Positions 653-20,695 of a stretch of DNA of 22,174 bases are shown here, in pieces. The stretch's first letter is position 1. The number at the start of each line of letters is the position of its first letter. Origin of the DNA: a virus; IMG/VR virus record IMGVR_UViG_3300008459_000458, positions 1 to 22,174 of that record; one strand, written 5' to 3'. A program made the translations under genes and the position numbers. The notes under the pieces were generated by a model that had not been told where the DNA came from, did no database searches, and worked only from the letters and a program-made list of their open reading frames with translations.

Positions 653-662
653 AATATTTATA
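653..662 (+). promoter_or_regulatory. Predicted late promoter, AATATTTATA
   Basis: AATATTTATA lies just after a terminator and 13 nt before the ATG at 676. It is one of nine upstream copies of ATATTTAT(A/T) in this window. The identification as a late promoter is inference from recurrence and from the reverse-complement relation to the T4 late core TATAAATA. Confidence 0.5.
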
Positions 663-675
663 CATAAAATAGTTA

Positions 676-873
676 ATGGGTTCAAAAATTAATTTTATAT
701 CTGTACACGCAGTTAATGATGCTGGTAATATCGAACAATATTTCATTAATACCGAACATGTACTACTAGTTCGTACGGAAGATGATACAATTATAATTAA
801 ATTAACTAATGGCGAAATAATTAAAATAAATAATATTCCTATACATTTATTTATGGACAAGTTTTATCGTTAA
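676..873 (+). CDS. Small unknown protein, probable beta fold
   Basis: A 65-residue protein. Its middle (ISVHAVNDAGNIEQYFINTEHVLLVRTEDDTIII) alternates hydrophobic and polar residues as beta strands do, followed by LTNGEIIKINNI, a pattern seen in small strand-rich proteins such as FlbD-like or LytTR-like modules. That resemblance is only in pattern and I do not assign a family. It is the first gene after a terminator (610-644) and a predicted late promoter (653-662), so it probably starts a new transcription unit. A long frame on the opposite strand here is a shadow that crosses the terminator. The ATG at 676 is the only reasonable start. Confidence 0.6.
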   Translation: MGSKINFISVHAVNDAGNIEQYFINTEHVLLVRTEDDTIIIKLTNGEIIKINNIPIHLFMDKFYR

Positions 874-886
874 TTTTAAAAAAACG

Positions 887-895
887 ATATTTATA
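887..895 (+). promoter_or_regulatory. Predicted late promoter, ATATTTATA
   Basis: ATATTTATA in the 52-nt gap between the genes ending at 873 and starting at 926, 30 nt before the start. It is one of nine upstream copies of the motif and suggests the histone-like gene has its own late promoter. Confidence 0.5.
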
Positions 896-925
896 TTAAA
901 TTTAATAACAAAAAAGGTTTACATT

Positions 926-1128: not shown

Positions 1129-1932
1129 ATGAAAAAATCAGTAGAATATATTATTCGAGAAACTATTAAAGAAATCCTATCAGAGGCACCAGCAAAACCA
1201 GAATTTGACAATGCACCGGCTGCCGCAAAGGATTCTCCATTTACGCCTGCGGAAGAAAAATTTATTTCTAAGTTTGATGCGAATGGTACTAGGCATCTTG
1301 GAATAATATATTCTCCTACTGATATTGGTATTCGCGAATTTATTACCAGAAGTGGTAAAGATTTAAATTTAACGCCAGAAATATTATTAAGAATGCTCCG
1401 AGATGGATACATAAAAATAGTTCCATATACCGGCTACGGCAGAAATACTGACTATACATTAGAACTTCAGTTATCATTAGATGATATTAAAGGAATGGGT
1501 AGCGAAGAACAAAAAGAAAAAGAAGAAAAAGAAGCACCATCTGGAGCATCAATTGAAACACCAGAATTACCCGCACCAGGTCCAGAGAATGCCGGAGTCA
1601 TGAAATATGGAGATTTATTACATGAATCTGCAAAAATCATGAATAATCTTATCACTGAGAAAAAATCCACAAAAAAAGATACCGAAGTTAAAGTTTATCA
1701 TAAACAAGCTAGGGTATTAGATCGACTTCCCAAAGGTTATGTTACAGATTTAGAAAGAATTATCAGTATTTTAAATAAAAAAACTAAATCTAAATATGAA
1801 AAAGAAAGATTGGTTGCTGATTTACTAGATAATTTAGCATTAAACTTTGATTTAAATGCAGATCAAATTAGAAAATCATATGAATTTCATAAAAATCAAA
1901 AAAGATTAAAGAAATTCTTAGACTCTAAATAA
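1129..1932 (+). CDS. Putative virion protein with LSE leader
   Basis: A 267-residue protein of unknown family. The N-terminus reads MKKSVEYIIRETIKEILSE followed by Ala-Pro-rich sequence. This is an amphipathic helix ending in LSE at residues 17-19, the same position as the LSE in the two ENMRRF leaders (genes at 189 and 5512), although the helix sequence differs. A prohead-protease cut after Glu19 is therefore plausible. Residues about 22-42 are Pro/Ala-rich. A folded segment follows (about 42-120, with NLTPEILLRMLRDGYIKIVPY), then a Lys/Glu/Pro linker (about 124-155). The C-terminal helical domain ends in a basic helix (YEFHKNQKRLKKFLDSK). The layout suggests a flexible multi-domain structural or internal protein. 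It starts 11 nt after the histone-like gene and is probably co-transcribed with it. Confidence 0.65.
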   Translation: MKKSVEYIIRETIKEILSEAPAKPEFDNAPAAAKDSPFTPAEEKFISKFDANGTRHLGIIYSPTDIGIREFITRSGKDLNLTPEILLRMLRDGYIKIVPYTGYGRNTDYTLELQLSLDDIKGMGSEEQKEKEEKEAPSGASIETPELPAPGPENAGVMKYGDLLHESAKIMNNLITEKKSTKKDTEVKVYHKQARVLDRLPKGYVTDLERIISILNKKTKSKYEKERLVADLLDNLALNFDLNADQIRKSYEFHKNQKRLKKFLDSK

Positions 1933-1966
1933 TTTGGATTTAATAAAATTATTTCCTATTATTATA
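1933..1966 (+). promoter_or_regulatory. Candidate promoter of a second class (TTTGGATTTAATA)
   Basis: TTTGGATTTAATA at 1933-1945 recurs nearly intact before the genes at 4962 and 6167. About 19 nt after TTTGG comes an AT-rich TATTATTATA (1957-1966), a possible -10-like box. TTTG is the usual -33 element of Bacteroidota promoters, but the typical TAnnTTTG at -7 is missing. Tentative. Confidence 0.3.
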
Positions 1967-1996
1967 AAGTAGTTATAAACCTCAAATTTTAAAAAA

Positions 1997-2206
1997 ATGT
2001 CTTATTACACCGCAAAAGTGCAGTTGACTGTGGTGGTTGATACACCAAAAGGTCAGCGAGAAAAAAGAGTTACAGAAACTTACTTAGTAGAAGCACTATC
2101 AGTTACCGAAGCAGAAGCAAAGGTAGTCAAAGATTTTGCTGGATCTACGTTTGATTTCGAAGTTAAGTCAGTTAATACAAGTAAAATCATTAAAATTATA
2201 GAATAA
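1997..2206 (+). CDS. DUF4494-like small protein
   Basis: A 69-residue protein. It has an N-terminal strand pair (YYTAKVQLTVVVDTPKGQ) followed by a conserved-looking core, VTETYLVEALSVTEAEAKV at about 25-43, and a C-terminal segment ending in KIIKIIE. The "YLVxAxSxTEAEAxV" signature is what I recognise as DUF4494, a family found mainly in Bacteroidota and their phages with no established function. Its presence supports a Bacteroidota host. The stop overlaps the next start as TAATG at 2204-2208, so the two are probably translationally coupled. No SD is visible; an A-rich stretch precedes the ATG. The family call is from memory of the pattern. Confidence 0.6.
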   Translation: MSYYTAKVQLTVVVDTPKGQREKRVTETYLVEALSVTEAEAKVVKDFAGSTFDFEVKSVNTSKIIKIIE

Positions 2207-2481
2207 TGGGTTACAAAGCAGGCGAAACAGTTATAGTTACCCAAGAGGGTACTAATCGTGTAGGAGTTGTCTTAGATAAATTCCAAGTACACAAAAAAAC
2301 CATGTATGATGTGTTGTTAGAAAACAGAAGTGGCGTATCGATGCTTACTACTTCTGCAAATAACAAAACATATATCAACAAGCAATTAACTAAACTGTTA
2401 TGTGAATCAAATAAAATACAAACTACGATTCCATATTATGATTTATTAGTTGCAGATTTATTACCTGATACAAAATCTTAA
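2206..2481 (+). CDS. Unknown 91-aa protein with SH3/KOW-like N-terminus
   Basis: A 91-residue protein of unknown function. Residues 4-40 (KAGETVIVTQEGTNRVGVV, then a second strand pair MYDVLLENRSG) have the G-D/E-x-V...G-x-V pattern of small SH3- or KOW-like barrels, similar in style to the N-terminus of the protein at 4201-4848. The C-terminal third (LLCESNKIQTTIPYYDLLVADLLPDTKS) looks helical. It overlaps the DUF4494-like gene by one base and is followed 5 nt later by a methyltransferase gene, so the three probably form one operon. The start is fixed by the TAATG overlap. No membrane segment or catalytic motif is visible. Confidence 0.6.
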   Translation: MGYKAGETVIVTQEGTNRVGVVLDKFQVHKKTMYDVLLENRSGVSMLTTSANNKTYINKQLTKLLCESNKIQTTIPYYDLLVADLLPDTKS

Positions 2482-2486
2482 TAGTT

Positions 2487-3143
2487 ATGTCAATTTTCGA
2501 AGGATTACAAGAGCGTATACAAGATTTGTTTGGTACCAAAAAAGAAAATAAATTTGATACATTAGATCCGCAAACCGATTCAGATTATTTATTAAATAGT
2601 CCAATTCCAGTTGGATATGATTCCATACAACAACAGAGATTTATCTATCAAAATTTAATATCTGGATTTGATCCTATAAATAATAGTTTATATGAAGTAG
2701 GCTGCGGGCGAGGAGATCTGTATAAATTTATAAAAGATTTATACGGAGTTGAAAATTTTGAATACGATGGAATTGATTTCAATCCGGTTATGTCTGATTT
2801 AGCAAAACAAAAATATGATTTAGATATAACAAATGGAATGTATGAAACTACACCGATTCCAAAATTTGATTGGGTTGTAGCATCCGGTCTATTTAGTAAT
2901 AAAACTAAACAGACAGATGATGAACAAGTTAGTTATATTTTGGATATGATTAACCGTATGTATGAATCGGCAAATAAAGCTGTTGCATTCAATCTATTAT
3001 GTCCATTAGCCGGATCAGTATCAGAAGGGTTCTTTTATGTATCGCCTGGACAAATCATTAATACATTAATACAAAAATATCGATTTGTTAATATTAAACA
3101 TGATTACATCGATAACATTTATACAGTAACAATTTTAAAATAA
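2487..3143 (+). CDS. Class I SAM-dependent methyltransferase
   Basis: A 218-residue protein with a Rossmann-type methyltransferase core. Motif I is EVGCGRGD at residues 70-77 (SAM-binding glycine-rich loop). Motif II is the acidic GID at 95-97, likely to bind the ribose. A motif IV-like segment, FDWVVASGLFS, follows at about 125-135. The first 50 residues form a helical N-terminal extension. There is no DPPY/NPPY-type motif, so a DNA adenine or cytosine-N4 methylase is not indicated, and the substrate cannot be read from sequence. The late strand segment (YRFVNIKHDYIDNIYTVTILK) closes the sheet as in other family members. Cyanophages and other T4-like phages carry similar stand-alone methyltransferases of unknown target. 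It sits in an operon with the DUF4494-like and SH3-like genes. Confidence 0.8.
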   Translation: MSIFEGLQERIQDLFGTKKENKFDTLDPQTDSDYLLNSPIPVGYDSIQQQRFIYQNLISGFDPINNSLYEVGCGRGDLYKFIKDLYGVENFEYDGIDFNPVMSDLAKQKYDLDITNGMYETTPIPKFDWVVASGLFSNKTKQTDDEQVSYILDMINRMYESANKAVAFNLLCPLAGSVSEGFFYVSPGQIINTLIQKYRFVNIKHDYIDNIYTVTILK

Positions 3144-3151
3144 AACAAAAA

Positions 3152-3544
3152 ATGAAAAGTAGCATTAATCATCCCGAAGCAATACAAGACAAGTTTGTAG
3201 AGCGCTATGGAAAAACATGGGCAAACATGGATTTTGTGTTTGACATTGAAATTTCTGAAAATAAATTTAGAGAAGATCCAATGAACACAGAAGTTGGTCA
3301 TTTAATATTGGAAAATCAACGTATTAAAATGCGTTATAAAGATTTAATTTCATATTCTAGAATCATGGAAGAAACTGCAAGTGAAGTATATTCTAGTTTA
3401 CTATCAAAAGAAGATACAGTGCCAGTAGAAGTTAAAGGAAATGCGTTTTCTTTAAGAAAACACGAAATAGGAAAATTGGCAGATACTTTAACTGATGCAA
3501 CTAATGCTACCATGAAGGGATATGAACTAGGTTTATATTTATAA
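3152..3544 (+). CDS. Unknown 130-aa protein
   Basis: A soluble, mainly helical protein with no family I recognise. It contains a charged N-terminal half (FVERYGKTWANMDFVFDIE) and a long central helix (ILENQRIKMRYKDLISYSRIMEETASEVYSSLL, about 51-83). The C-terminal part (HEIGKLADTLTDATNATMKGYELGLYL) is rich in Ala and Thr. It begins 8 nt after the methyltransferase gene, on the same strand, and its last codons overlap a predicted late promoter for the next gene (3535-3543). There is no signal peptide, membrane segment or metal-binding motif. An A-rich sequence rather than an SD precedes the start. Confidence 0.6.
   Translation: MKSSINHPEAIQDKFVERYGKTWANMDFVFDIEISENKFREDPMNTEVGHLILENQRIKMRYKDLISYSRIMEETASEVYSSLLSKEDTVPVEVKGNAFSLRKHEIGKLADTLTDATNATMKGYELGLYL
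3535..3543 (+). promoter_or_regulatory. Predicted late promoter, ATATTTATA, inside the end of the upstream gene
   Basis: ATATTTATA covers the final codons and part of the stop of the gene ending at 3544. It lies 21 nt before the start at 3565, within the spacing range of the other copies. Because it falls in coding sequence it is a weaker case than the intergenic copies. Confidence 0.4.
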
Positions 3545-3550
3545 TAAAAT

Positions 3551-3558
3551 AAAGGAGG
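3551..3558 (+). promoter_or_regulatory. Strong Shine-Dalgarno site AAAGGAGG
   Basis: AAAGGAGG ends 6 nt before the ATG at 3565. It is the only full-length SD I see in the window; other genes have A-rich leaders or at most AAGG/AAGGA. It fixes the start of the small gene downstream. Confidence 0.75.
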
Positions 3559-3564
3559 CCTATT

Positions 3565-3726
3565 ATGAATACATATGTTTACTTTTATAAAAGCGATTCA
3601 ACAAAAGAACCTATAGGCCGAGTAATTGCATATACTATTAATGAAGCGGTTCAAAAAATTGTTGTTATAAAAAAATTAAGTGAGGAGTCAATTGAAAAAC
3701 TATTAGTAATAAAAAAACTGGACTAA
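3565..3726 (+). CDS. Small unknown 53-aa protein with strong ribosome-binding site
   Basis: A 53-residue protein too short for most gene finders, supported by the AAAGGAGG site 6 nt upstream and by its clean fit between neighbours. It starts MNTYVYFYKSDSTKEPIG, continues with a helix (YTINEAVQKIVVIKKLSEES), and ends in a near-repeat of the same strand (KLLVIKKLD). IVVIKKL at about 32-38 and LLVIKKL at 46-52 look like a short internal duplication. No domain is recognised. The stop is followed 1 nt later by the next ATG (3728), so the two are likely coupled. The predicted late promoter at 3535-3543 and the strong SD suggest high late expression. Confidence 0.7.
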   Translation: MNTYVYFYKSDSTKEPIGRVIAYTINEAVQKIVVIKKLSEESIEKLLVIKKLD

Positions 3727-3727
3727 C

Positions 3728-4195
3728 ATGAAACCACTGTACAATAACGTAAACATTAGTAATGATGAAATCTATTACTATTTGGAATTAAGCGACGCGC
3801 AGAAAATACATTACTTGTTTCAATTATTTGACAGAGAACAGAAAAAATTAACATCAAAAAATTTAGATTTATCTGGATTTTTTAATTCGTTAAATGGTAG
3901 TTTAGATGCTAATACCGATCCAGATTTTAATCGTGATGCTGAAGAGAATCAACAGCTAGATCCAAATTTGGAAAATCATCCTGGTCGTGTAGACATTTTA
4001 ATTGATAATAATAATTTAATGATTGAGTCGAATAGTTTAAAAGCTATTCGACATATCATTTATAGATTTATTGAATCTGGATATATACTTCGAAGAGATT
4101 TACAATTAGAAAAATTATTTAAACGAGATAAAGTTACTAAATATCTTCGAATCTTTTCTATAGTTGATCAAACCAATCAAATTTGTATAAATTAA
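3728..4195 (+). CDS. Unknown 155-aa protein
   Basis: A protein with two predicted helical parts separated by an acidic, Asn/Asp-rich linker. The first part (EIYYYLELSDAQKIHYLFQLFDREQKKL, about 14-41) contains many aromatic residues. The linker (about 55-85, DANTDPDFNRDAEENQQLDPN) is probably flexible. The C-terminal part (LKAIRHIIYRFIESGYILRRDLQLEKLFKRDKV, about 103-135) is basic and could contact nucleic acid or another protein, but no helix-turn-helix or enzyme motif is clear. It starts 1 nt after the stop of the 53-aa gene. The next gene's likely ATG lies 5 nt after its stop. Confidence 0.6.
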   Translation: MKPLYNNVNISNDEIYYYLELSDAQKIHYLFQLFDREQKKLTSKNLDLSGFFNSLNGSLDANTDPDFNRDAEENQQLDPNLENHPGRVDILIDNNNLMIESNSLKAIRHIIYRFIESGYILRRDLQLEKLFKRDKVTKYLRIFSIVDQTNQICIN

Positions 4196-4200
4196 TTTTT

Positions 4201-4848
4201 ATGAGTACAAAAAATATTCCAGAGAACATCTTTAAAAAATTTAACAAAGTTCTGTTTAAAACAGGAGATGCTGTTTGTTTTACATGGTTTGGAGAACGTT
4301 GTTATGGATATGTAGTTCGATCTAAAAGAAATACATGGGGTGTACAATATACCGTTGAAATGGATGGTATAAAGTATCCATGTGGTATACAAATAGATGG
4401 ATATAAAACTAAGTATGCAACGGGTTGTGTATTATACGACGACACACAAAATACAGATACAGAAGAATTAAAGCGTAAAGCATCAATTAAACCAGAAATA
4501 TATAATTCAATTACCGTTAAAAGAACTACGTATGAGCAATCAGGATCCGACCAACCTAGACAAGTTTCTACAAACAACAGAAGGAAAAAAACTAAAAGCA
4601 CAGACGATGATAGATTACGCGGAACGGATGTTGATACCGTTGATTCAAAAACTACATCAGACACCGCCATCGGAGTTTCCGGAACAATTGATACTGGGAC
4701 TAGCAATACACGAATGCGTCGACGCAATAGTAAAGAACCAAGCAATACTAAACCAAAAAAAGAAGTCAAGAAAAAAGAAAATAAAGATTTAGAAGATGCT
4801 ATAAAGAAGCAAAAGGCATTTTTAAGTGGATTTGTTAAAAAAGAATAA
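4201..4848 (+). CDS. Protein with SH3/KOW-like N-terminal domain and disordered basic tail
   Basis: A 215-residue protein, taking the ATG at 4201 (MSTKNIPENIF) as the start. An in-frame ATG at 4183 would add six residues but would overlap the previous gene's end. Residues about 17-80 form a strand-rich domain with pattern KTGDAVCFTWFG...GYVVRSKRNTWGVQYTVEM, similar in style to SH3/KOW modules and to the protein at 2206-2481. From about residue 95 the sequence is low-complexity, rich in Thr, Ser, Asp, Lys and Arg, and ends in a charged helix (DLEDAIKKQKAFLSGFVKKE). The low-complexity tail coincides exactly with a second open frame (4532-4792) on the same strand. A terminator follows directly at 4851-4875. 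The function is unknown. Confidence 0.6.
   Translation: MSTKNIPENIFKKFNKVLFKTGDAVCFTWFGERCYGYVVRSKRNTWGVQYTVEMDGIKYPCGIQIDGYKTKYATGCVLYDDTQNTDTEELKRKASIKPEIYNSITVKRTTYEQSGSDQPRQVSTNNRRKKTKSTDDDRLRGTDVDTVDSKTTSDTAIGVSGTIDTGTSNTRMRRRNSKEPSNTKPKKEVKKKENKDLEDAIKKQKAFLSGFVKKE
4532..4792 (+). CDS. Candidate overprinted 86-aa helical protein nested in the 4201-4848 gene
   Basis: An ORF of 86 residues in the +1 frame relative to its host gene. Unlike random shadow frames it reads like a compact helical protein. KFLQTTEGKKLKAQTMIDYA and ERMLIPLIQKL at about 11-41 are followed by PPSEFPEQLILGLAIHECVD and AIVKNQAIL, then a basic tail (KKKSRKKKIKI). The host frame is low-complexity over the same bases, and this stretch uses more C and G at third positions than its surroundings (gcc, atc, tcc, gac, cgc), as expected if two frames are constrained. 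No SD precedes the ATG. Coding status is uncertain; if real, this is a gene-within-a-gene, with the host's tail the more permissive frame. Confidence 0.4.
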   Translation: MSNQDPTNLDKFLQTTEGKKLKAQTMIDYAERMLIPLIQKLHQTPPSEFPEQLILGLAIHECVDAIVKNQAILNQKKKSRKKKIKI

Positions 4849-4850
4849 TT

Positions 4851-4875
4851 AGGAGCCAATAAGGCTCCTTTTTTT
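4851..4875 (+). terminator. Rho-independent terminator
   Basis: AGGAGCC at 4851-4857 pairs perfectly with GGCTCCT at 4863-4869 around a 5-nt AATAA loop, followed by a T run through 4875. It lies 3 nt after the stop of the gene at 4201-4848 and ends the left transcription block. Confidence 0.9.
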
Positions 4876-4898
4876 ATGTAAAAAAGTTAATATTTTGG

Positions 4899-4931
4899 TT
4901 GGATATTTAATAAGTATTTTATATTATATTA
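4899..4931 (+). promoter_or_regulatory. Candidate promoter of a second class (TTGGATATTTAATA)
   Basis: TTGGATATTTAATA at 4899-4912 resembles the sequences at 1933 and 6119. An AT-rich ATATTATATTA follows at 4921-4931, 18 nt after TTGG, and the CAP-domain gene starts 30 nt further on. It lies just downstream of a terminator, so some promoter is needed here. Tentative. Confidence 0.35.
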
Positions 4932-4961
4932 ATGTAATTAACCACTTAACAATTATCGATT

Positions 4962-5522
4962 ATGAAAAATGCAATAACTATATTATTCGTCGTAATTAAT
5001 AGTTTTTCTTTTGCACAGACCCAATTGGATTTAATCCTATTAAATAAAGTTAATGCATATAGAAATAGTAAAGGATTACATTCACTGATTTGGAATAATT
5101 CATTGTATTTAGTTGCAGATAATCAAGCACAATACATGTTATTATCTAACAAAGTATCCCATGATCAGGAATTGCGTGATTCAATTATTTCAAAATCATT
5201 TGTTCCTGAGCCTAGTTTTACTGCTAGATTTATAAAATTTATGGATTACATTGGTACTAGAAGGGTCGGAGAAAATTTAGTTGCCCATAAAATACCATCA
5301 TATACTAATATCAATTTAGATAGCCTATCTAATAAATTACTAGAATCTTGGATATTTTCTCCAGCCCATAATGCATTATTATTAGACTCTGCTATGTGCG
5401 AAGCTGCTATATGCAATAAATATAGAGAAAATCTGTTAGAGGTCGATCCAGAAACTCTAGATTTTGTATACTCTAACAGATTATATGTTTCATATGAATG
5501 TTACACGGATATTACTGAGTAG
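4962..5522 (+). CDS. Secreted CAP (SCP/YkwD-like) domain protein
   Basis: A 186-residue protein with an N-terminal signal peptide: MKNA, hydrophobic ITILFVVINSFSF, and a predicted signal peptidase I cut after FA (residue 18) before Gln19. The FAQ ending is typical of Bacteroidota exported proteins. The rest matches the CAP fold: LLNKVNAYRNSKGLHSLIW (about 26-44), His67 in VSHD, Glu104 in GENL, and the signature SWIFSPAHNALLLD at 129-142 with His136. These His/Glu positions correspond to the conserved CAP cavity residues. Bacterial CAP proteins act outside the cytoplasm, often at the envelope, but their biochemical role is poorly defined. In a phage a role at the cell envelope during lysis or superinfection is possible but unproven. 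It overlaps the convergent minus-strand gene by 11 bp. A host-derived cargo gene is a reasonable explanation. Confidence 0.8.
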   Translation: MKNAITILFVVINSFSFAQTQLDLILLNKVNAYRNSKGLHSLIWNNSLYLVADNQAQYMLLSNKVSHDQELRDSIISKSFVPEPSFTARFIKFMDYIGTRRVGENLVAHKIPSYTNINLDSLSNKLLESWIFSPAHNALLLDSAMCEAAICNKYRENLLEVDPETLDFVYSNRLYVSYECYTDITE

Positions 5523-6087
5523 ATTGTGTTCCGATATTCAGTTGTTGAGTTGTTTTAGATCTAGGTGGTTGTACAGTAACCGGAACATCTTTTGCAGCTT
5601 GTTGTTGCTGTGGTGTAGCTAGTGTAGTTTTATATACAGTATCATCATCATAAGAACTAAGCAAGTCTTGCTGTCTTGATAGTAAAACAGATAATGCGGC
5701 CTTAACGGTCCCAGCTCCAAAATCACCATCTACGAACGGAGCTGTTTTACCAGATAAAGTTTTTATCTTTTCAATTCCAAATTCTTTTTGAAAATTTTGA
5801 ATTCTTGGATCTTTTTCTTTATAACCTAAACTACGAAAATACTGTATAGGTGCGGTATCGTTAATTAAACTGTCATTTGACAAAGATCTTTGTATAATAG
5901 CTATACGTTCTTTTATTGTTAAATCATCGGTAAAATTTAATTTATCTTTAGCATATTTAGTTACAAAGTCTATATAAAGTTGTTTAGATGATGGCAATCT
6001 AAATACAGCAAATACGTTTGTAATGTTTTGTTCAGATAAATTTTTAGTTCTAAAACGGCGCATATTTTCAGCTAGTATATTTTCCAT
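5512..6087 (-). CDS. Leader-bearing protein with peptidoglycan-binding-like segment
   Basis: The only clear minus-strand gene, 191 residues. Its first 20 residues share 16 identities with the protein at 189-554 (ENMRRF at 7-12, TKNLSEQ at 14-20), with the LSE putative prohead-protease site at 17-19. Residues about 92-140 (PRIQNFQKEFGI ... FVDGDFGAGTVKAALSVL) follow the PG_binding_1 pattern, whose hallmark is a D-G-x-F/Y-G-x-x-T-x-x-A segment; here it reads VDGDFGAGTVKAAL. The C-terminal 45 residues are Gln/Thr/Pro-rich and probably disordered. This suggests a head- or virion-packaged protein that may bind cell wall, although the two halves of that idea have not been seen together. A motif copy (6104-6112) on the minus strand lies 16 nt before its start. 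Its end overlaps the convergent CAP gene by 11 bp. Confidence 0.65.
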   Translation of the reverse strand: MENILAENMRRFRTKNLSEQNITNVFAVFRLPSSKQLYIDFVTKYAKDKLNFTDDLTIKERIAIIQRSLSNDSLINDTAPIQYFRSLGYKEKDPRIQNFQKEFGIEKIKTLSGKTAPFVDGDFGAGTVKAALSVLLSRQQDLLSSYDDDTVYKTTLATPQQQQAAKDVPVTVQPPRSKTTQQLNIGTQSTQ

Positions 6088-6103: not shown

Positions 6104-6112
6104 AATAAATAT
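6104..6112 (-). promoter_or_regulatory. Predicted late promoter on the minus strand, ATATTTATT
   Basis: On the minus strand this reads ATATTTATT, 16 nt before the start at 6087. It is the only minus-strand gene and the motif is turned with it, which argues that the motif is directional rather than just AT-rich filler. Confidence 0.5.
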
Positions 6113-6118
6113 AAAGTA

Positions 6119-7187: not shown

Positions 7188-7197
7188 AATATTTATA
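7188..7197 (+). promoter_or_regulatory. Predicted late promoter, AATATTTATA
   Basis: AATATTTATA lies in the 53-nt gap after the UVDE gene, 39 nt before the next start at 7237, the longest spacing among the nine upstream copies. It would start the block of genes running through the late sigma factor. Confidence 0.5.
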
Positions 7198-8367: not shown

Positions 8368-8694
8368 ATGATATTAATACTTTTATTATTATTGTTTATT
8401 TTAATAGTAGCAACAGTATATTTAGGTCGTAGAGCATATGTATTAGCTGGTTTATTAGCAGATGCTCAAGATGTTATTGATGAACGACAAGCATATATCA
8501 TACAACTTGAAGATACTAACAGATATATGTTTTCTAGAATCGAACAATCATATGATGCAATGCAACAAATAGATCGTTTAGGCGCATTTGAAAAAGATGA
8601 TGAAGCTGGAACTACTTTTGAATTATTAAAACAAGTTATAAATGAATTAAATACTGAATTCAATGAGTCCGAGGAAAAAGAAACCCAGCAGTAA
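8368..8694 (+). CDS. Membrane-anchored protein with conserved acidic helical tail
   Basis: A 108-residue protein. Residues 1-18 (MILILLLLLFILIVATVY) form one transmembrane segment at the very N-terminus, followed by RR, so the rest probably faces the cytoplasm. A helical region (about 25-60) leads to AMQQIDRLGAFEKDDEAGTT at about 69-88. A similar ID-x-x-GxFExDDExG segment occurs, to my recollection, in uncharacterised T4-like phage proteins. The tail is acidic (FNESEEKETQQ). The gp55-like gene starts inside its last 32 bases in another frame, so the two are likely coupled. T4's late coactivator gp33 is also about this size, but gp33 is not a membrane protein, so I do not claim equivalence. 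Confidence 0.65.
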   Translation: MILILLLLLFILIVATVYLGRRAYVLAGLLADAQDVIDERQAYIIQLEDTNRYMFSRIEQSYDAMQQIDRLGAFEKDDEAGTTFELLKQVINELNTEFNESEEKETQQ

Positions 8695-9364
8695 TTATTT
8701 TACTAAGATTACTGATATTGCAATTATTGCTTATAATAGAGCAGAGAGTTCAGTTTTAAGAGAAAAGATATATCGAAGATTTATATATCCGGCTTTCATG
8801 AAGTTAACAGAAAATATTATTAATAAAATGAAACCAGATTATATTGATTCATCATTCATGGATCTTCAAACTGATTTAGTTACTCACTTAACTTCGAAAC
8901 TAGATAAGTTTAAACCAGATTCAGGTAAAGCATATTCATATTATACCAGAACTTCATTTAACTATTTAATTGCAGAAAATCAAAAAGCATACGCTAAATT
9001 AAAAAATGATACTGAGGAATTAGATGTTGATGAACAACGTAATGTATTGATAGAAATACATAATGATGAAATGCGAGACACTTTAAAGTATTTCATGGAT
9101 GCATATATTAAACATTGTTATAAAAATCTCAATTATATTTTTACTAATCAGTCTGATATACATGTTGCTGACTCTATTTTGCATATATTTGAATCTAGAG
9201 AAATCATCGAAGATTTCAATAAAAAAGCATTGTATATTTTAGTTAGAGAGCGTACTGGTTTACTAACTAATAATATTACCAGAGTAGTTAAAGTACTTAA
9301 AGATATATACGTTAGAAAATTTAAAGAATATGAACAAGATAATTTCGTAAATTTACCATTTTGA
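8663..9364 (+). CDS. 55: Probable late-transcription sigma factor, gp55-like
   Basis: A 233-residue protein. Residues about 67-114 contain LDKFKPDSGKAYSYYTRTSF and NYLIAENQKAYAKLKND. This follows the sigma region-2 pattern seen in gp55-type factors of T4-like phages (DxFxPxxGKAYSYFxxxxxNYLI). gp55 replaces host sigma-70 and directs RNA polymerase to late promoters. The final residues (QDNFVNLPF) are acidic then hydrophobic, resembling the sliding-clamp-binding tails used in T4 late transcription; that is inference. No region-4 helix-turn-helix is obvious, as in T4 gp55. The start lies within the end of the previous gene (32-bp overlap). The next predicted late promoter is at 9364-9372, just before the baseplate genes. 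Confidence 0.65.
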   Translation: MSPRKKKPSSNYFTKITDIAIIAYNRAESSVLREKIYRRFIYPAFMKLTENIINKMKPDYIDSSFMDLQTDLVTHLTSKLDKFKPDSGKAYSYYTRTSFNYLIAENQKAYAKLKNDTEELDVDEQRNVLIEIHNDEMRDTLKYFMDAYIKHCYKNLNYIFTNQSDIHVADSILHIFESREIIEDFNKKALYILVRERTGLLTNNITRVVKVLKDIYVRKFKEYEQDNFVNLPF

Positions 9365-9372
9365 TATTTATA
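9364..9372 (+). promoter_or_regulatory. Predicted late promoter, ATATTTATA
   Basis: ATATTTATA overlaps the end of the sigma-factor gene's stop codon (TGA 9362-9364) and lies 16 nt before the start at 9389. It would drive the baseplate block beginning with the 135-aa protein. Confidence 0.55.
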
Positions 9373-11962: not shown

Positions 11963-11971
11963 ATATTTATT
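11963..11971 (+). promoter_or_regulatory. Predicted late promoter, AATATTTAT(T)
   Basis: AATATTTATT, a one-base variant of the shared motif, lies in the 28-nt gap between the genes ending at 11956 and starting at 11985, 13 nt before that start. It would open the gp25-gp6 block. Confidence 0.45.
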
Positions 11972-11984: not shown

Positions 11985-12482
11985 ATGAAACAACAAGATA
12001 CATCTACATTTTTAAATGCATTAAGAAATGTTATTCGAGAGGAATTGCGTTCAGTAATTAAGCAAGAATTAACAGAAATTTTAAAAGAAGGATTACAGTC
12101 TACAATTACAGAAATGAAACAAAAATCTGTTCCGGTTTCTAATGTAACTAATAATACTTCTAAAAACAAAACTACATTTAATGAAAATAAATATGCTGAT
12201 ATATTAAATAGCACACCTGCTATTCAAGATCAACATAACGCTGTACAATCATATGCTGAGTTAATGGCAGAAGGAATGGAAGAATTAAAATTTACATCAC
12301 GAGATGCACAGACATTTCCGATGATGCGTCAAAATACTAAAAGTTCAGTTACTCAAGTTCCTGCTATAATGCATGATCCGGAAACTGGTAAGGATTTTGA
12401 AATTAAGCCAGAAGTTGCTAGTGCAATGACACGAGATTATTCTGCTTTAATGAAAGCAATGGATTCTAAAAAGAAAAAATAA
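11985..12482 (+). CDS. Unknown baseplate-region protein with N-terminal amphipathic helix
   Basis: A 165-residue protein. Residues about 9-36 form a long amphipathic helix (FLNALRNVIREELRSVIKQE then LTEILKEG), similar in character to the leader of the protein at 1129 but much longer, and probably used for oligomerisation or assembly. A Lys/Asn/Thr-rich linker follows. The C-terminal part has PAIMHDPETGKDFEIKPEVA and ends in a lysine run (KKKK). I recognise no family. It sits directly before gp25-like and gp6-like genes under a predicted late promoter, so a baseplate assembly role is plausible from position only. Confidence 0.6.
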   Translation: MKQQDTSTFLNALRNVIREELRSVIKQELTEILKEGLQSTITEMKQKSVPVSNVTNNTSKNKTTFNENKYADILNSTPAIQDQHNAVQSYAELMAEGMEELKFTSRDAQTFPMMRQNTKSSVTQVPAIMHDPETGKDFEIKPEVASAMTRDYSALMKAMDSKKKK

Positions 12483-12493: not shown

Positions 12494-12949
12494 ATGTCAT
12501 ATACATACATACCAAAGTATCAAGTAAAACCAAATGATAACGCATACGGAATAGATTTAAGTTCGAACTATCCGGGTATTTTTGGGTCATTATATGATAC
12601 TGGCAAACAGGCTACTGCAAATTTAAAAAATTTATTGTTTACTAGAAAAGGCGAACGGTATCATAATATAACATTTGGAACTAATTTAACTTATATAATA
12701 TTTGAGCCAAATGTAGCAGAATTAAAAGAAGATATTGATTCTATTATACGAGATGAAGTTTCGTATTGGTTACCATATATTAATATTTCTGATATTGAAA
12801 TTATAACAGCCGAAGATGATCCTACGATGAATCATAATATTAAAATTACAATAACATATAGTATCAACGATCAACCAGGTTTTGAAAATAAAATACTTAT
12901 ATATGCTTTAGAAAATGGCATATTATCAATAGAAGATTTTGGGCAATGA
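12494..12949 (+). CDS. 25: Baseplate wedge protein, gp25-like
   Basis: A 151-residue protein matching the GPW/gp25 family. LLFTRKGER at residues 47-55 and FGTNLTYIIFE at 61-71 correspond to the family signature (LLxTxxGER...FGxxLxxxLFE). The remainder alternates strands and helices (IIRDEVSYWLPYINISDIEI, then KITITYSINDQ) as in the T4 gp25 fold. gp25 connects the baseplate wedge to the tail sheath; it is a structural protein, although an old proposal gave it lysozyme activity. An AAGG lies 8 nt before the ATG at 12494. Its TGA overlaps the start of the gp6-like gene (ATGA at 12946), so the pair is translationally coupled, as expected for wedge components. Confidence 0.88.
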   Translation: MSYTYIPKYQVKPNDNAYGIDLSSNYPGIFGSLYDTGKQATANLKNLLFTRKGERYHNITFGTNLTYIIFEPNVAELKEDIDSIIRDEVSYWLPYINISDIEIITAEDDPTMNHNIKITITYSINDQPGFENKILIYALENGILSIEDFGQ

Positions 12950-14826
12950 AAACAAAAAAAGATGTATCATATTTAGGTAAAGACTTTGGTCAATTTAGAA
13001 AAAATTTAATAGAATTTACTAAACAGTATTTTCCAAATAATTATACAGATTTTAATGAGTCATCACCCGGAATGATTTTTATTGAACTGGCTTCGTATGT
13101 AGGGGATGTTTTAAGTTATTATACAGATACAAATTTAAAAGAATCCTTTTTAGAACAAGCAACTGAACGAGGTAATGTATATGACCTAGCTAGATTCTTG
13201 GGATATGAAGCAAAGAGTGTAACACCAGCTGTTGTTAAATTAGATGTATATCAACTAGTTCCAGCAGCTGGTACGGGATCAGCAGTACGACCAGATTTTA
13301 ATTATTCGTTATCTATTAAGTCTGGTATGCGAGTTAAACAATCAAATGGAGTTGCTCAATTTAGAACATTGAATCCGGTTAACTTTGCATTTTCATCTTC
13401 ATATGATACCACCGAAGTAACAATTTATGATACTGATTCTGCAACTAAACTTCCTACATATTACTTATTAAAAAAACAAGTTAATGCAGTATCCGGTGAA
13501 GTAAAAACAGCTACATATACTTTTGGGTCACCAATTCCATATGATAAAATAGTATTACCAGACAATAATATTGTCGAAATTTTATCAGTAGAAGAATCAG
13601 ATGGAGATAACTGGTATCGTGTTCCGTATTTAGCACAAGACACTATATTTGAATCAGTTCCTAATGTAGTCGAAAATGATCCGGAACTATCTGTATATCG
13701 TAGTACAGTTCCTTACTTATTAAAATTAAAGAAAACATCAAAACGGTTTGTAACTAGAACTAGATCTGATGGTAAGACTGAAATGCAATTTGGAGCTGGT
13801 ATTTCTGATAATAATGATGAGGAGATTATACCAAATCCTGACAATGTTGGAAACGGACTTTCAGGATTTAGGCGCGATGTTGATGTTGATATAGATCCAT
13901 CAAATTTTTTATATACTAGAACATATGGTCAAGCACCATCTAATACTACATTAACTGTAACATATACAGTTGGCAGTGGAATAACAGATAATGTAGCAGC
14001 TAGTACATTAAATGAAATTAATTTTATTGAATACTTTGATGATGTTAATTCTACTAATAGCGGAGCTATAACAAATTATGTAAAAACTACAGTTGCAGTA
14101 AACAATGAAACTCCTGCGGTTGGAGCTAAGTTTGGAGATTCTGTTACTGATATAAAAAATAATGCATTGGCTAATTTTGCAACTCAAAATCGACTTGTAA
14201 CTAAGGATGATTATATTATACGAGCATATAGTATGCCGGCTAATTATGGAAGTGTTGCAAAATCATATATAGTCCCTGACGATCAGATCACACAACAAGA
14301 TTTAGAAATTTCTAGAACTCCAAATCCATTAGCATTAAACATGTATGTTTTAGGTTATAATGAAAATAAACAATTAGTTGAACTTAATGCCGCAATAAAA
14401 GAAAACTTAAAAACATATTTAGGACATTACCGAATGTTAACAGATGCAGTTAATATCAAAAATGCATTTATAATTAATATTGGTATTGATTTTAAAATAT
14501 CAGTGCTTCCAAATTATAATAGCAATGATGTTTTATTGCGTTGTATAGAAGCGTTAAAAAGTTATTTTGATATTGACCGTTGGCAAATTAACCAACCTAT
14601 AGTTAAATCAGAAGTCTTTACCGTTTTAGCTAATACAAAAGGCGTACAATCTGTATATAGCGTATCATTTAAAAATTTATATGACTCTAATTTAGGATAT
14701 TCTGGCAATATATATGATTTAGCTACAGCGGATAGAAAGGGTATTATATATCCTAGTTTAGATCCTAGTATATTCGAAGTTAAATTCCCAAATAAAGATA
14801 TCACAGGACAAGTACTAAGTTATTAA
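12946..14826 (+). CDS. 6: Baseplate wedge protein, gp6/J-like
   Basis: A 626-residue protein, close to the 660 of T4 gp6. The N-terminus has the conserved wedge region FNESSPGMIFIELASYVGDV, then LSYYTDTNLKESFLEQATER, then GNVYDLARFLGYEAKSVTPA (about 38-95). This pattern is shared by gp6 and Mu-type baseplate J proteins. The central part is strand-rich. Near residue 415 comes NRLVTKDDYIIRAYSMPANY, also typical of J-like proteins, and the C-terminus is a compact alpha/beta domain. gp6 forms the iris of the baseplate, joining wedges into a ring. The ATGA overlap with the gp25-like gene sets the start. This is one of the most secure assignments here. Confidence 0.88.
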   Translation: MKTKKDVSYLGKDFGQFRKNLIEFTKQYFPNNYTDFNESSPGMIFIELASYVGDVLSYYTDTNLKESFLEQATERGNVYDLARFLGYEAKSVTPAVVKLDVYQLVPAAGTGSAVRPDFNYSLSIKSGMRVKQSNGVAQFRTLNPVNFAFSSSYDTTEVTIYDTDSATKLPTYYLLKKQVNAVSGEVKTATYTFGSPIPYDKIVLPDNNIVEILSVEESDGDNWYRVPYLAQDTIFESVPNVVENDPELSVYRSTVPYLLKLKKTSKRFVTRTRSDGKTEMQFGAGISDNNDEEIIPNPDNVGNGLSGFRRDVDVDIDPSNFLYTRTYGQAPSNTTLTVTYTVGSGITDNVAASTLNEINFIEYFDDVNSTNSGAITNYVKTTVAVNNETPAVGAKFGDSVTDIKNNALANFATQNRLVTKDDYIIRAYSMPANYGSVAKSYIVPDDQITQQDLEISRTPNPLALNMYVLGYNENKQLVELNAAIKENLKTYLGHYRMLTDAVNIKNAFIINIGIDFKISVLPNYNSNDVLLRCIEALKSYFDIDRWQINQPIVKSEVFTVLANTKGVQSVYSVSFKNLYDSNLGYSGNIYDLATADRKGIIYPSLDPSIFEVKFPNKDITGQVLSY

Positions 14827-14831: not shown

Positions 14832-14840
14832 ATATTTATA
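14832..14840 (+). promoter_or_regulatory. Predicted late promoter, ATATTTATA
   Basis: ATATTTATA in the 33-nt gap between the gp6-like gene and the next start at 14860, 19 nt upstream of that start and followed by an AAGGA ribosome-binding site at 14847-14851. Confidence 0.55.
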
Positions 14841-15313: not shown

Positions 15314-16471
15314 ATGTTTAGAATATTTTATGCAGAAAAAGATGCAACGTTGTATGAATCATATGCAGATTATAATACTGGATTAGATGAAATACTAGAA
15401 GTTGGTAAACGGTTAGATACAGAAGGAACTTCACTTCAAAAATCTAGAAGTGTTGTAAAATTTGATATGTCAGAAATACAAACTGTATTATCAAAGTACT
15501 CAGTTGACTTAAATGATTGTAAATTTTTATTGCAATTATATACTACTAATGCAAAAAATCTTCCTTCTGAATATACAATTACTGCAAATATTTTAGCACA
15601 AAATTGGATTAATGGCACTGGATTTCTAAGTTCGGATCCTGTTATATCAAATGGTATAACTTGGAATTATCCATTATCTGGCTCTAGTTGGGTATCTAGT
15701 AGCCAACAAATACAAGTTAATAGTTCATCATTATATATTTCAGGGTCCGGAAAAGGTGGTAGCTGGTTATATCAATCTGGTAGTGGCGTATTTAACCAAT
15801 CATTTTTCAATCAATCATTTTTTACACAACCAGGCTTAGGAAATAATGAAGGATTTTCTTATAGACCAACTGATTTAAATATTGATGTAACTGATGCTAT
15901 TAAACTATGGATAAGTGGTAGTGGCGGACATTCGATCAGCAACAATGGATTTTTATTAAGATTTTCTGATGCAGATGAATCTAATGACAATGTAACTGGA
16001 TATATAAGATTTTTTAGTAGAGAAACGCATACTATATATGTTCCAAAATTAACAATGTACTGGGATAACAGCACATTTACAACAGGATCGTTAGTATCTA
16101 TAGATTCAGATTCATATTTAGTATATACCAATGTAAAAGCACAGTATAAAGATACCGAAATTTCTAAAATACGAATATTTGCTCGAGATAAATATCCATC
16201 AAAATCTCCGACTAATTTATATCCATATCAAACAGTAAAATACTTACCGCCGACAACATATTATACAGTTAAAGATGCAGCTACAGATGAAATCATAATT
16301 CCGTACGATAATATTTATAGTAAAGTAAGTTGTGATTCTACTAGTAATTTCATTTATATTGATATGAATGGTTTTATGCCAGAAAGATATTATCGTTTAG
16401 AATTTAAAATAGTAGACGGATTTACTGAACAATATATAACTGATTCGGTTTATTTTAAAGTAGTTAGATAA
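15314..16471 (+). CDS. Tail/baseplate protein with DNRLRE-like N-terminal domain
   Basis: A 385-residue protein. The N-terminal domain (about 1-200) has YAEKDATLYESYADYNTGLD, then EILEVGK and SRSVVKFDMSEI. This is the pattern of DNRLRE-type carbohydrate-binding-like modules (xxDAxIxxxxxxxNxGxxxxLxVG...SxxRFD), although I assign it tentatively. A tandem 15-nt repeat at 15794-15823 encodes NQSFF twice. SGSG-rich loops surround it. The C-terminal 100 residues are strand-rich (KYLPPTTYYTVKDAATDEII, then YYRLEFKIVDG). Position between gp6-like and the 1177-residue protein suggests a baseplate or fibre-attachment role. The end is TAATG-coupled to the next gene. Confidence 0.55.
   Translation: MFRIFYAEKDATLYESYADYNTGLDEILEVGKRLDTEGTSLQKSRSVVKFDMSEIQTVLSKYSVDLNDCKFLLQLYTTNAKNLPSEYTITANILAQNWINGTGFLSSDPVISNGITWNYPLSGSSWVSSSQQIQVNSSSLYISGSGKGGSWLYQSGSGVFNQSFFNQSFFTQPGLGNNEGFSYRPTDLNIDVTDAIKLWISGSGGHSISNNGFLLRFSDADESNDNVTGYIRFFSRETHTIYVPKLTMYWDNSTFTTGSLVSIDSDSYLVYTNVKAQYKDTEISKIRIFARDKYPSKSPTNLYPYQTVKYLPPTTYYTVKDAATDEIIIPYDNIYSKVSCDSTSNFIYIDMNGFMPERYYRLEFKIVDGFTEQYITDSVYFKVVR
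15794..15823 (+). repeat. Two-copy 15-nt tandem repeat in a tail gene
   Basis: AACCAATCATTTTTC at 15794-15808 is repeated with few changes at 15809-15823, in frame and encoding NQSFF twice. It looks like a small replication-slippage duplication inside the structural gene. Confidence 0.6.
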
Positions 16472-17115: not shown

Positions 17116-17126
17116 TTTAGATATAC

Positions 17127-20100
17127 ATGTTAAGTCAATATAAAAACATACAAGAAATTCTAAGTAAAACTGCTGGTTCTACATTTGGATTGAGATTCTC
17201 AGATCGAGAATTAGGATTAATTAATCGTTCTATTCGAATAGTAGAATCAGAAAAACTTAAAAATGTAGAATTACATGTATATTCTGATAGTACATGGATA
17301 ACTGGTAATCATAAAGTTACTTTACAACACGCTATACCTAGTTTTACTAACCCAGACACTAATGAATTATTACAGTTAACTGGAAATGTTATTTCTATAG
17401 ATCTGTATAAACATTTAAGTGATTTAAAACTTACAAGTGGTAAATTTAGATTTATTATAAATTTCTTTTCTGATTTAATCGGAAACTATGATCAGCAGTA
17501 TTTAGTAATCGATGAAATTTCTCCAGATCGTACAGAATTGCGTTTACGAGTAATTGATATTAATGATTCTAAGTTACTTCAACAATTAACTGATTATACG
17601 AACTCTGTACAGAAAAGGCATACTTCAAAACAATCATATACTCAGTATTTATTAAATTTTAGTAGAAACAAAACAGTATCGTTTGTTAATAGTGTAGTTG
17701 TTGGGGAGTATATATATGTTAAGTTGTATGAAGCATTACCAGATGACTTAGAAATTAATTTTAAATGTTGGATTGTTCAAGAAGAGAAATTACCATATAT
17801 TGATAATATCTTTATTCAACCAAAACAATCAGTAAAAACATTTACAACGTTGTCATCTGCCAATTGGCAAGCAGTATCTGATTATAATGTTTCTTCTGAA
17901 ACAGGTATAAAAAATTGGAATGATTTATTAGGATCATCTGTACAAACATCACAACAAATTATCGATGCATATTTTTCTGGAAGTTTATCTGGAATAAAAT
18001 TAAACATTGATTATAGTGATTTTAACAACTTTGTTTTTTATAGTTCTGCAGAAGAACGATTAAATAATTTTAAATATAAATTAGAATTACTAGAATATTA
18101 TGATTCGCAAATTGCAATACTTCAAACAATCTCCGGATCAGACGCATCTACAAATATAACTGATTATCAAAATAACAAACAATCATTAACTGGTGGATTT
18201 GATAATTTTGAAAAATTTTTATATTTTGAATCATCGTCAAAATTAACATCAAACGAGATACCACATGAATCTCCAGTAGTTGCAACTATTACTGGTAGTT
18301 ATTTAACACCGGTACCAAAAACTAATTCTACATACCCGTATGCATTATGTTCTACAACAAGTAGCACATTTATTAATTGGTTTGCCACTGCTAGTATCAA
18401 TGCACATACATATGATCAATTTAATATTAATAAGTTATCATATGCATTACCAACAACTATAATACAAAATGATTCTACTACTGATTTCTTAACATTTGTT
18501 AACATGTTAGGTCATCATTACGATATATTATATACATACATTAAACATACTTCTTTATTATATAGAAAAGAAGAAAATCCTAAATTAGGAATACCAAATG
18601 AATTACTATATTCAGTAGCAAAACAATTTGGATGGAATCTACAGGAAGGAAATCAATATCAAGAATTATGGCAGTATGTTTTAGGAACCAATGAAGCAGG
18701 AATTCCATTAACTGGGTCTAATACTGTTGGAGATCCTTCTGTTCCTGGTCGTGAAATGACTTATACGGTATGGCGTCGTATTGTTAATAACTTACCTTTA
18801 CTTTTAAAATCTAAAGGTACTAAACGAAGTGTACAAGCATTATTATCTTGTTATGGAATACCAAATTCATTGATAAGTATTAATGAATATGGCGGCCCTA
18901 GAATAGATCGTACGCCAGTATATGAAAAGTTAAATTTTGATTATGCATTAGATTTAATTAATAATACTGCCGGCACTGTAACAATAAATTACAGTCAATC
19001 TATAGGAAGTTTTGAAATACGTTTTCGCACTGATGATGTAATAAAAAATCCGGCTATACCAAATACCATGAATTTAGTTAATATTAACGGAAACACCGTA
19101 ACATTAAATTATACTCGCGGTACATTGGGTACAGTAAAAATAAACGGATCTGCATCTGCTAATATAGAATTATTTGATGGTGGTTGGTCTAATTTATTAT
19201 TAAGACAAAATAACACAAATTTAGATTTATTTGTTAATAGATCTAAATATGGAAAAATTGTAGCATCAGTTTCAGCATCGGCCACCGCATCATTTGGATT
19301 ATCCGGATCTATTACATTTGGCGGAACTTCTACTGGTGCATCTAGATTGCAAGGACAATTGCAAGAAGTTCGTTTGTGGTCTGGTAGTTTGTCTTTATCT
19401 GCATTTGAAAATCACACTAAAGCACCGGCAGCATATAACGGTACAACAGATGCATATCAAGAACTAATATTCCGTTTACCATTAACGCAAAAAATAAATC
19501 ATAATACTACATCTAGTTTGCGAGGCGTTGAACCAAAACAATCTACGATATCTGCGTCATTTTCTGGATGGAGCATCGCTGAGCCATATGATTCTATTGA
19601 AGAAACATATTATTATGATAGTTTATCAATTGGTGCTGGTACATTTGATGATAACAAGATTCGAATTGAATCTAGTTCACTCGTTGGAAATTTAGATATA
19701 AAAACTAGAGCCGAACGTAGTCAGTATGATACAGCTCCATTAGATAGTAAAAAATTAGGCATATATTTTTCTCCGCAAACAATGATTGATGAAGATATCA
19801 TTGCGCAACTAGGATTTACTGAATTAGATTCATATATAGGTGATCCGGGAGATACTGATGAAAAATCATATACTTTATTAAAATGGAAGTCGAGAGAATA
19901 TTGGAAAAAATATTCTGGTAGAAATGATATCAATTCTTATATAAGAATATTTACTTTATTTGATTTATCATTTTTTAAACAATTAGATCAATTACTACCA
20001 GCACGAGTAGATAAATTAACCGGGTTATTGATACAACCAAATTTATTAGAACGTAGTAAAGATTCATTATTACCTAGTATATCTAAGATTAACGAAACAT

Positions 20101-20660
20101 ATACATCTAGTTTACAATATGTTCCTGTTACTACTGGTGAAAGTATTATTTATACTGGAAATATTGCTGATGATTTATATACTATAACTGGTTATGATGA
20201 TGATCAGTTAGCTATGTATATTGAAACATTAGGAAATAGTAAATATGATGGATTTAATTATTCATATACGTATTTAAATAGATCTGGTAGTACTTATATA
20301 ACCGCATCTGCTCCATATTGGCAATCAGAATTTACTTGTCCATCTATAACCGGTAGTGTTATATCTAAACAATTTAAGAAAATTGAAACTTATTATTCTG
20401 GAGGCATATCTTATACGAGGGAAATTCAATCTGATGTATCTAATTACAGACCAACACGAGTACTTCGCCAAAGATATGATGGAGCAAAAATGAATTCAGC
20501 TGATTTTAATATTAAATCTACGGATACTTATGATGGTGGACCGGTAGCAGAAATAATTCTTACTAATCCAAATCAATTGATATACGATGGAGGTCCATCA
20601 AAAGGTAAATTTACAATTGGAGGATCTACACAAATATTAGGTAGTACCACAGAAGCATAA
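17127..20660 (+). CDS. Very large baseplate/tail protein with LamG-like domain
   Basis: A 1177-residue protein, the longest in the window. Residues about 548-580 contain NNLPLLLKSKGTKRSVQALL followed by SCYGIPNS, a block shared by large tail proteins of T4-like marine phages. Residues about 612-785 (SIGSFEIRFR ... WSNLLLRQNNTNLDLFVN ... GQLQEVRLWSGSLS) match a LamG/concanavalin-A-like beta sandwich, a fold that often binds sugars. The rest is mixed strand and helix. Its position after gp25 and gp6, and size near T4 gp7 (1032 aa), suggest a baseplate-wedge protein of the gp7 type with an inserted lectin-like domain, though direct homology to gp7 is not visible. It may contact the host surface. 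A new motif copy follows the gene. Confidence 0.65.
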   Translation: MLSQYKNIQEILSKTAGSTFGLRFSDRELGLINRSIRIVESEKLKNVELHVYSDSTWITGNHKVTLQHAIPSFTNPDTNELLQLTGNVISIDLYKHLSDLKLTSGKFRFIINFFSDLIGNYDQQYLVIDEISPDRTELRLRVIDINDSKLLQQLTDYTNSVQKRHTSKQSYTQYLLNFSRNKTVSFVNSVVVGEYIYVKLYEALPDDLEINFKCWIVQEEKLPYIDNIFIQPKQSVKTFTTLSSANWQAVSDYNVSSETGIKNWNDLLGSSVQTSQQIIDAYFSGSLSGIKLNIDYSDFNNFVFYSSAEERLNNFKYKLELLEYYDSQIAILQTISGSDASTNITDYQNNKQSLTGGFDNFEKFLYFESSSKLTSNEIPHESPVVATITGSYLTPVPKTNSTYPYALCSTTSSTFINWFATASINAHTYDQFNINKLSYALPTTIIQNDSTTDFLTFVNMLGHHYDILYTYIKHTSLLYRKEENPKLGIPNELLYSVAKQFGWNLQEGNQYQELWQYVLGTNEAGIPLTGSNTVGDPSVPGREMTYTVWRRIVNNLPLLLKSKGTKRSVQALLSCYGIPNSLISINEYGGPRIDRTPVYEKLNFDYALDLINNTAGTVTINYSQSIGSFEIRFRTDDVIKNPAIPNTMNLVNINGNTVTLNYTRGTLGTVKINGSASANIELFDGGWSNLLLRQNNTNLDLFVNRSKYGKIVASVSASATASFGLSGSITFGGTSTGASRLQGQLQEVRLWSGSLSLSAFENHTKAPAAYNGTTDAYQELIFRLPLTQKINHNTTSSLRGVEPKQSTISASFSGWSIAEPYDSIEETYYYDSLSIGAGTFDDNKIRIESSSLVGNLDIKTRAERSQYDTAPLDSKKLGIYFSPQTMIDEDIIAQLGFTELDSYIGDPGDTDEKSYTLLKWKSREYWKKYSGRNDINSYIRIFTLFDLSFFKQLDQLLPARVDKLTGLLIQPNLLERSKDSLLPSISKINETYTSSLQYVPVTTGESIIYTGNIADDLYTITGYDDDQLAMYIETLGNSKYDGFNYSYTYLNRSGSTYITASAPYWQSEFTCPSITGSVISKQFKKIETYYSGGISYTREIQSDVSNYRPTRVLRQRYDGAKMNSADFNIKSTDTYDGGPVAEIILTNPNQLIYDGGPSKGKFTIGGSTQILGSTTEA

Positions 20661-20686
20661 AATAAGTTGAAAAAATATAAGTATTA

Positions 20687-20695
20687 ATATTTATA
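20687..20695 (+). promoter_or_regulatory. Predicted late promoter, ATATTTATA
   Basis: ATATTTATA in the 55-nt gap after the large tail gene, 20 nt before the start at 20716. No terminator hairpin is visible in the gap, so read-through plus a fresh promoter is likely. Confidence 0.55.

Follow-up and report, generated by a model that had tools for sequence, protein, structure and literature searches.

T4 late promoters, which carry the box TATAAATA and work with gp55, gp33 and gp45, have no −35 element and are followed by AT-rich DNA (PMC2988020). T4 gp55 flips two bases of this box, A−12 (Y97) and A−8 (T99), into deep pockets and a third, A−9 (N13 and H95), into a shallow one (PMC7892883). In the Bacteroidota, the flavobacterial primary sigma factor has the −7 consensus TAnnTTTG (PMC9723704). 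Here we analyse 22,174 nucleotides (nt) of viral DNA (IMG/VR record IMGVR_UViG_3300008459_000458, positions 1 to 22,174; hereafter, the window), in which a nine-base box, ATATTTATA or its variant ATATTTATT, stands a short distance ahead of gene starts. We consider it probable, at about 0.8, that this box serves a T4-like clade as its late promoter, rewritten at its centre and read by a divergent phage sigma factor related to gp55. An earlier note on this DNA had called the motif a candidate late promoter, and its direction, position, conservation and late-gene preference, together with a nearby gp55-like sigma gene, support that view.

Placement, direction and form of the box

All nine copies that had been listed upstream of genes are present, two of them one base further along than first given (654 and 7189, not 653 and 7188), and the box ends lie 13–39 nt ahead of the start codons, as had been claimed (Table 1). 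The mid-gene copy at 16311, which had been thought the only clear one, is there too, but two more on the minus strand (5415 and 12186) make three in all and bring the window total of ATATTTATW to 12. Exact ATATTTATA occurs eight times on the forward strand and never on the reverse, and 16311 is its single mid-gene occurrence. Some copies are tightly fitted between genes: box 9364 starts on the final base of the stop codon of the predicted sigma gene, and box 3535 overlaps the 3′ end of the gene at 3152–3544.

The comparison with shuffled DNA that the earlier note had proposed did not favour the motif when made on the whole window, where the 12 copies face 7.35 expected from dinucleotide shuffles and were reached in 9 of 100 (not significant). 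AT-rich DNA gives similar totals, and the raw count by itself is a poor argument. Placement is another matter. The box lies in the sense direction within 60 nt upstream of 9 of 29 window genes and never in the antisense direction, whereas 2,000 trials in which each upstream region was dinucleotide-shuffled averaged 0.66 and never exceeded 5. The placement and direction of the motif are beyond chance. Moreover, a de novo count of 8-mers upstream of genes ranks ATATTTAT first in three data sets (the window, and the 80 relatives and Mel-JY01 described below), and the motif is retained by an expectation-maximization search that started from the core but could move away from it. That the box is a chance occurrence in AT-rich intergenic DNA, as the unremarkable total count might suggest, is contradicted by the tests of position, direction and conservation, and we give this explanation practically no weight.

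Relatives were located with the baseplate wedge gene of the window (53% identity to Mel-JY01 and 43% to immuto) and comprise Flavobacterium phage immuto, Microcystis phage Mel-JY01, the uncultured phage LR756508 and 80 viral loci from uncultivated virus genomes (UViGs), with one gene caller used throughout. Upstream of genes, ATATTTATA occurs 94 times in sense and twice in antisense in the 80 loci, 10 and 0 times in immuto, and 9 and 0 times in Mel-JY01. The count of intergenic against coding copies that had been proposed as a check bears the motif out, with 1.80 per kb upstream and 0.07 per kb in coding sense across the 80 loci. Strand skew extends over the full length of eight large contigs (3/33, 10/0, 31/8, 4/26, 2/25, 22/3, 5/23 and 3/8); the T4 control gave 9/9.

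The box also follows particular genes. It recurs ahead of most orthologues of the genes at 9389, 11985, 7237, 14860, 20716 and 3565 (Table 1) and is absent from the operon-internal families 8368 (0/92), 8663 (0/100), 9789 (0/109), 10835 (0/89), 12494 (0/115) and 12946 (0/114). By gap length, it is found in 201 of 230 gaps of 20–40 nt and 68 of 85 gaps of 40–80 nt, whereas below 20 nt only 9 of 898 gaps contain it; these family and gap counts include many closely related loci and are not independent events. The box appears to mark the starts of multi-gene transcription units, with the gap-length pattern of promoters.

This pattern also bears on whether the box is instead a messenger RNA leader element that enhances translation or stability. 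Its nearness to the start codon (median 19 nt), the A-rich leader sequence after it and the general lack of Shine–Dalgarno signals in the Bacteroidota would fit such a role. However, tightly packed genes would need a translation signal too, and the near absence of the box from the shortest gaps means that the packed downstream genes of the same operons do without it; in addition, it goes with particular orthologous families instead of occurring before every gene, and it stands anywhere from 4 to more than 40 nt from the start codon. We therefore favour a promoter over a translation signal and regard a leader element as improbable.

The earlier note had also described the motif as the reverse complement of the T4 late core, and hence as either an opposite reading of a familiar element or a recoded late box. 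The strings are indeed reverse complements, but an opposite reading is unneeded because the TAT..ATA flanks are palindromic, so that reverse-complementing TATAAATA has the same outcome as swapping its central AA for TT. The recoded late box was the better half of that phrase, since A−12 and A−8 are kept when the box is read with the genes. Sense TATAAATA is found upstream of no window gene and 18 times in the relatives, against 96 antisense occurrences; the exact T4 box is not what precedes these genes. It is very improbable that the box is a T4-type TATAAATA promoter on the opposite strand, giving antisense or divergent transcripts: although its reverse complement contains TATAAATA, each box keeps to the start of the gene that it precedes, the box of the only minus-strand gene is itself on the minus strand, and a plus-strand terminator-like hairpin (626–638) lies directly 5′ of the box at 654.

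Read in the gene direction, the consensus is ATATTTAT(A/T)nnAAA(G/A), with AAA at positions 11–13 and A/T-rich sequence downstream, and a family-weighted logo has a T-rich stretch 7–16 nt upstream of the box. There is no conserved −35 element, and no TTG at the host spacing upstream of the boxes. Purines are favoured at the predicted +1 (G 0.41, A 0.35), which is only suggestive.

Late-gene preference and early promoters

In immuto, TATTTATA precedes 15 of 59 structural-region genes and 9 of 174 others (p = 5e-5); in Mel-JY01, ATATTTAT precedes 12 of 53 and 6 of 167, respectively (p = 7e-5), the structural blocks of both having been delimited by us from annotation. Boxes in three large contigs stand ahead of portal, sheath, tube and hub genes and not ahead of ssb, recA-like or dnaB genes, and block tests of the large contigs gave p = 0.04 for G001 and p = 0.02 for G004. 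The association with late genes is strong but has exceptions.

Immuto supplies an internal control in the form of a second class of promoter. Primary-sigma promoters of flavobacteria have a TTG element upstream. The early promoter of immuto, TTG-N20-TATATTTAGG, is found before 14 non-structural genes and before none of the 59 structural (late) genes, none of which carries TATTTAGG. As a side observation, a highly uniform early family of the form TTG-N20-TATATTTAGGTAT(CAATAATT) precedes small early genes in immuto (MW353175, 22094–76216). From its sequence, the early element of immuto appears to be host-type and fits the flavobacterial primary-sigma class. An early class probably exists within the window's own clade as well: on contig G001, TTGACACG followed by a TTATATTTA-like box occurs at six upstream sites outside the late block and at none inside it. 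The stretch 1601–11710 of that contig (L179–L184, reverse-complemented) has about 13 copies of TTGACACG(C), with a TTATATTTA-like box and a GAGATATG-type start. A generic Escherichia coli sigma-70 scan of the window returned fewer sites than in shuffles.

These classes allow us to weigh whether the box is itself a −35-less or degenerate host primary-sigma promoter, of the Bacteroidota type with −7 TAnnTTTG, read by host sigma A. ATATTTA is common to the early immuto promoters and the late box (TATATTTAGG versus ATATTTATA), and TATTTATA agrees with TATnTTTG at most positions. By contrast, TTG lies exactly 21 nt upstream of ATATTTAGG in 94% of the host-type early sites of immuto and in about 1% of the relatives' late boxes, the two classes stand before different genes, the late box lacks the G of TAnnTTTG, and a phage sigma factor is kept across the clade. 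We consider reading by the host sigma factor unlikely and favour a phage-encoded reader.

A predicted sigma factor and its surroundings

The likely reader of the box, judging from sequence profiles and a structural model, is the product of the window gene at 8663–9364. Residues ~14–115 of its predicted fold form a gp55-like sigma region 2, and residues ~135–228 are helical and helix-turn-helix-like. A second look at the AlphaFold2 (AF2) model (mean predicted local distance difference test score 79) matched it to T4 gp55 in a promoter open complex (7d7c_F; Z 10.0, 119 residues, root-mean-square deviation 7.0) and to region 2 of sigmaE on its −10 strand (4lup_A; Z 9.7, 2.4 Å, 91 residues); helical folds can attain such Z by chance, but here sigma factors make up almost all of the top matches, in agreement with the sequence profile. 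A profile of ten gp55s aligned to the clade profile by hhalign with probability 95 and E = 3e-8. One member matches Sigma70_r2 (E = 0.05) and one a sigma family in PHROGs (E = 0.19), neither convincingly. The C-terminal domain resembles sigma region 4 only weakly (7khc_F region 4, Z 4.7), among SRP and TFIIB matches.

The whole clade shares this gene: orthologues at about 34% occur in immuto, Mel-JY01 and LR756508, and others in many UViG loci. The open reading frame of Mel-JY01 at 157744–158427, tried as the orthologue, was the wrong one: the true orthologue is 158764–159534. The rejected frame (PP395634, annotated as hypothetical) lies just upstream of it and encodes a Clp-protease family protein (PF00574, E = 6e-30).

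Residues of gp55 that contact the late box can be placed on the window protein. Y97 corresponds to Y93, invariant in 24 members; T99 to T95, which is T or S in most members and not in immuto; and F86 to F83. N13, invariant in the ten gp55s, falls on T14 and is not N in the clade, with the N-terminal register uncertain by one residue. H95 corresponds to Y91; cyanophage gp55s have F at this position, like the Y/F of the clade, so position 95 is not diagnostic and, with a T4-like late consensus reported for a cyanophage (PMC2988020), was rejected as the cause of the change from AA to TT. The pocket residues fit the kept A−12 and A−8 and the lost A−10 and A−9, a prediction and not a proof.

We propose that the box acts as the −10-like element in a late promoter of T4 type that has no −35 element and is oriented with the genes. 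The phage sigma factor would bind the host RNA polymerase core, capture A−12 and A−8 of the non-template strand and open the promoter; transcription would start some 6 nt downstream of the box. The operons for head, tail and baseplate would in this way be transcribed late in infection, with early genes served by the host primary sigma factor. The sigma gene may itself lie in the transcription unit that the 7189 box heads, because a small zinc-ribbon open reading frame (7429–7577), kept in relatives, fills the gap between genes 7237 and 7592; this arrangement would give positive feedback. No host-type promoter was found ahead of the sigma operon, upstream of 7592.

Several results weigh against this proposal. 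LR756508 has a sigma orthologue, yet the 42 kb read from it show no enrichment of the box. The block test of contig G003 was not significant (17/51 versus 7/28, p = 0.61), and some boxes, such as the nine outside the structural block of immuto, precede other genes. For the sigma factor, Foldseek E-values against the PDB are weak (best 0.42), and sequence searches of Pfam, PHROGs and the PDB gave no convincing name. The clamp gp45 model of Pfam (PF02916) had no match in immuto, Mel-JY01 or eight contigs, although it may be too narrow for this clade.

A further step is more tentative. A two-domain late sigma factor, combining region 2 with its own C-terminal helix-turn-helix part, could have replaced the split gp55/gp33 pair and may dispense with the replication clamp, in a clade, with at least one member on Flavobacterium, that rewrote the centre of the T4 box from AA to TT; we hold this combined scenario to be possible but doubtful.

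Table 1 Box copies and associated genes in the window
Feature	Coordinates	Strand	Details
Late box ATATTTATA	654..662	+	13 nt before ORF (open reading frame) at 676
Late box ATATTTATA	887..895	+	30 nt before gene at 926; box in 3/6 orthologues
Late box ATATTTATA	3535..3543	+	21 nt before gene at 3565; box in 8/9 orthologues
Late box ATATTTATT	6104..6112	−	16 nt before minus-strand gene 5512–6087; box in 2/2 orthologues
Late box ATATTTATA	7189..7197	+	39 nt before gene at 7237; box in 42/45 orthologues
Late box ATATTTATA	9364..9372	+	16 nt before gene at 9389; box in 100/102 orthologues
Late box ATATTTATT	11963..11971	+	13 nt before gene at 11985; box in 92/115 orthologues
Late box ATATTTATA	14832..14840	+	19 nt before gene at 14860; box in 25/25 orthologues
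Late box ATATTTATA	20687..20695	+	20 nt before gene at 20716; box in 24/24 orthologues
Mid-gene ATATTTATA	16311..16319	+	Inside gene 15314–16471; probably chance
Mid-gene ATATTTATT, antisense	5415..5423	−	Inside gene 4962–5522; probably chance
Mid-gene ATATTTATT, antisense	12186..12194	−	Inside gene 11985–12482; probably chance
Divergent sigma factor, predicted box reader	8663..9364	+	AF2 model, structure comparison, gp55 profile match
Baseplate wedge (gp6-like) gene	12946..14826	+	PHROG 219, E = 3e-20; morphogenesis gene within box-led unit

Other features of the window stand beside these. A UV-damage endonuclease gene, UvdE (6167–7183; PF03851, E = 1e-56), lies between the divergent minus-strand gene and the box at 7189. 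The gene at 4962–5522 encodes a secreted CAP/SCP-like protein whose signal peptide ends in SFAQ, an ending common in Bacteroidota, which hints at the host phylum. A perfect terminator-like hairpin on the plus strand (4851–4869; AGGAGCC-AATAA-GGCTCCT and a T run) follows the gene at 4201–4848. An N-terminal tag like MKNLLSENMLRFGTKNLSE is common to thirteen proteins with differing bodies, most of them preceded by a late box; carriers include the window genes 189–554 (+) and 5512–6087 (−) and proteins of L105, L106, L125, L127, L137, L167, L028 and L052. By its look it may be a propeptide of virion proteins or a signal that targets them, an idea comparable to the capsid-targeting sequence of T4.

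Meaning and comparison with known promoters

We found no published description of TATTTATA or ATATTTAT in phages, in a search largely outside subscription papers. The box offers a testable map of transcription in a large phage group that is mostly uncultured, occurs in many metagenomes and has largely unannotated genes; it flags operon starts and likely late genes, including those of unknown virion proteins, and names a probable reader. Since the change from the T4 box is confined to the centre and leaves the outer bases intact, the box and its sigma factor would form a natural experiment on which −10 positions a gp55-type sigma factor needs.

Like T4 late promoters, the element has a TATA-like box of eight bases at −10, lacks a −35 element, is followed by AT-rich DNA and would serve virion genes in a T4-type phage with a sigma-region-2 protein of its own; A−12 and A−8 are common to both. 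Unlike the T4 box (TATAAATA, −13 to −6), the window box TATTTATA has TT in place of the central A−10 and A−9, an extra conserved A ahead of it and AAA a few nucleotides after it, and the clade sigma factor, unlike T4 gp55, is recognizable only by profile or fold and has a longer, helix-turn-helix-like C-terminal part. By sequence, the element most likely works like a T4 late promoter without being one by its exact box, and its sigma factor resembles the T4 system in region 2 only. With the Bacteroidota primary-sigma promoter (TTG ... TAnnTTTG) it has TATTT-like core letters in common, but that promoter has a TTG about 20 nt upstream and a G ending its −7 box, and the late box has neither. The late promoter of Aeromonas phage Aeh1 (a/gC at −13/−12; PMC2988020) is likewise a lineage-specific change of the T4 box; Aeh1 alters the upstream end of the late box, whereas the clade of the window alters its centre.

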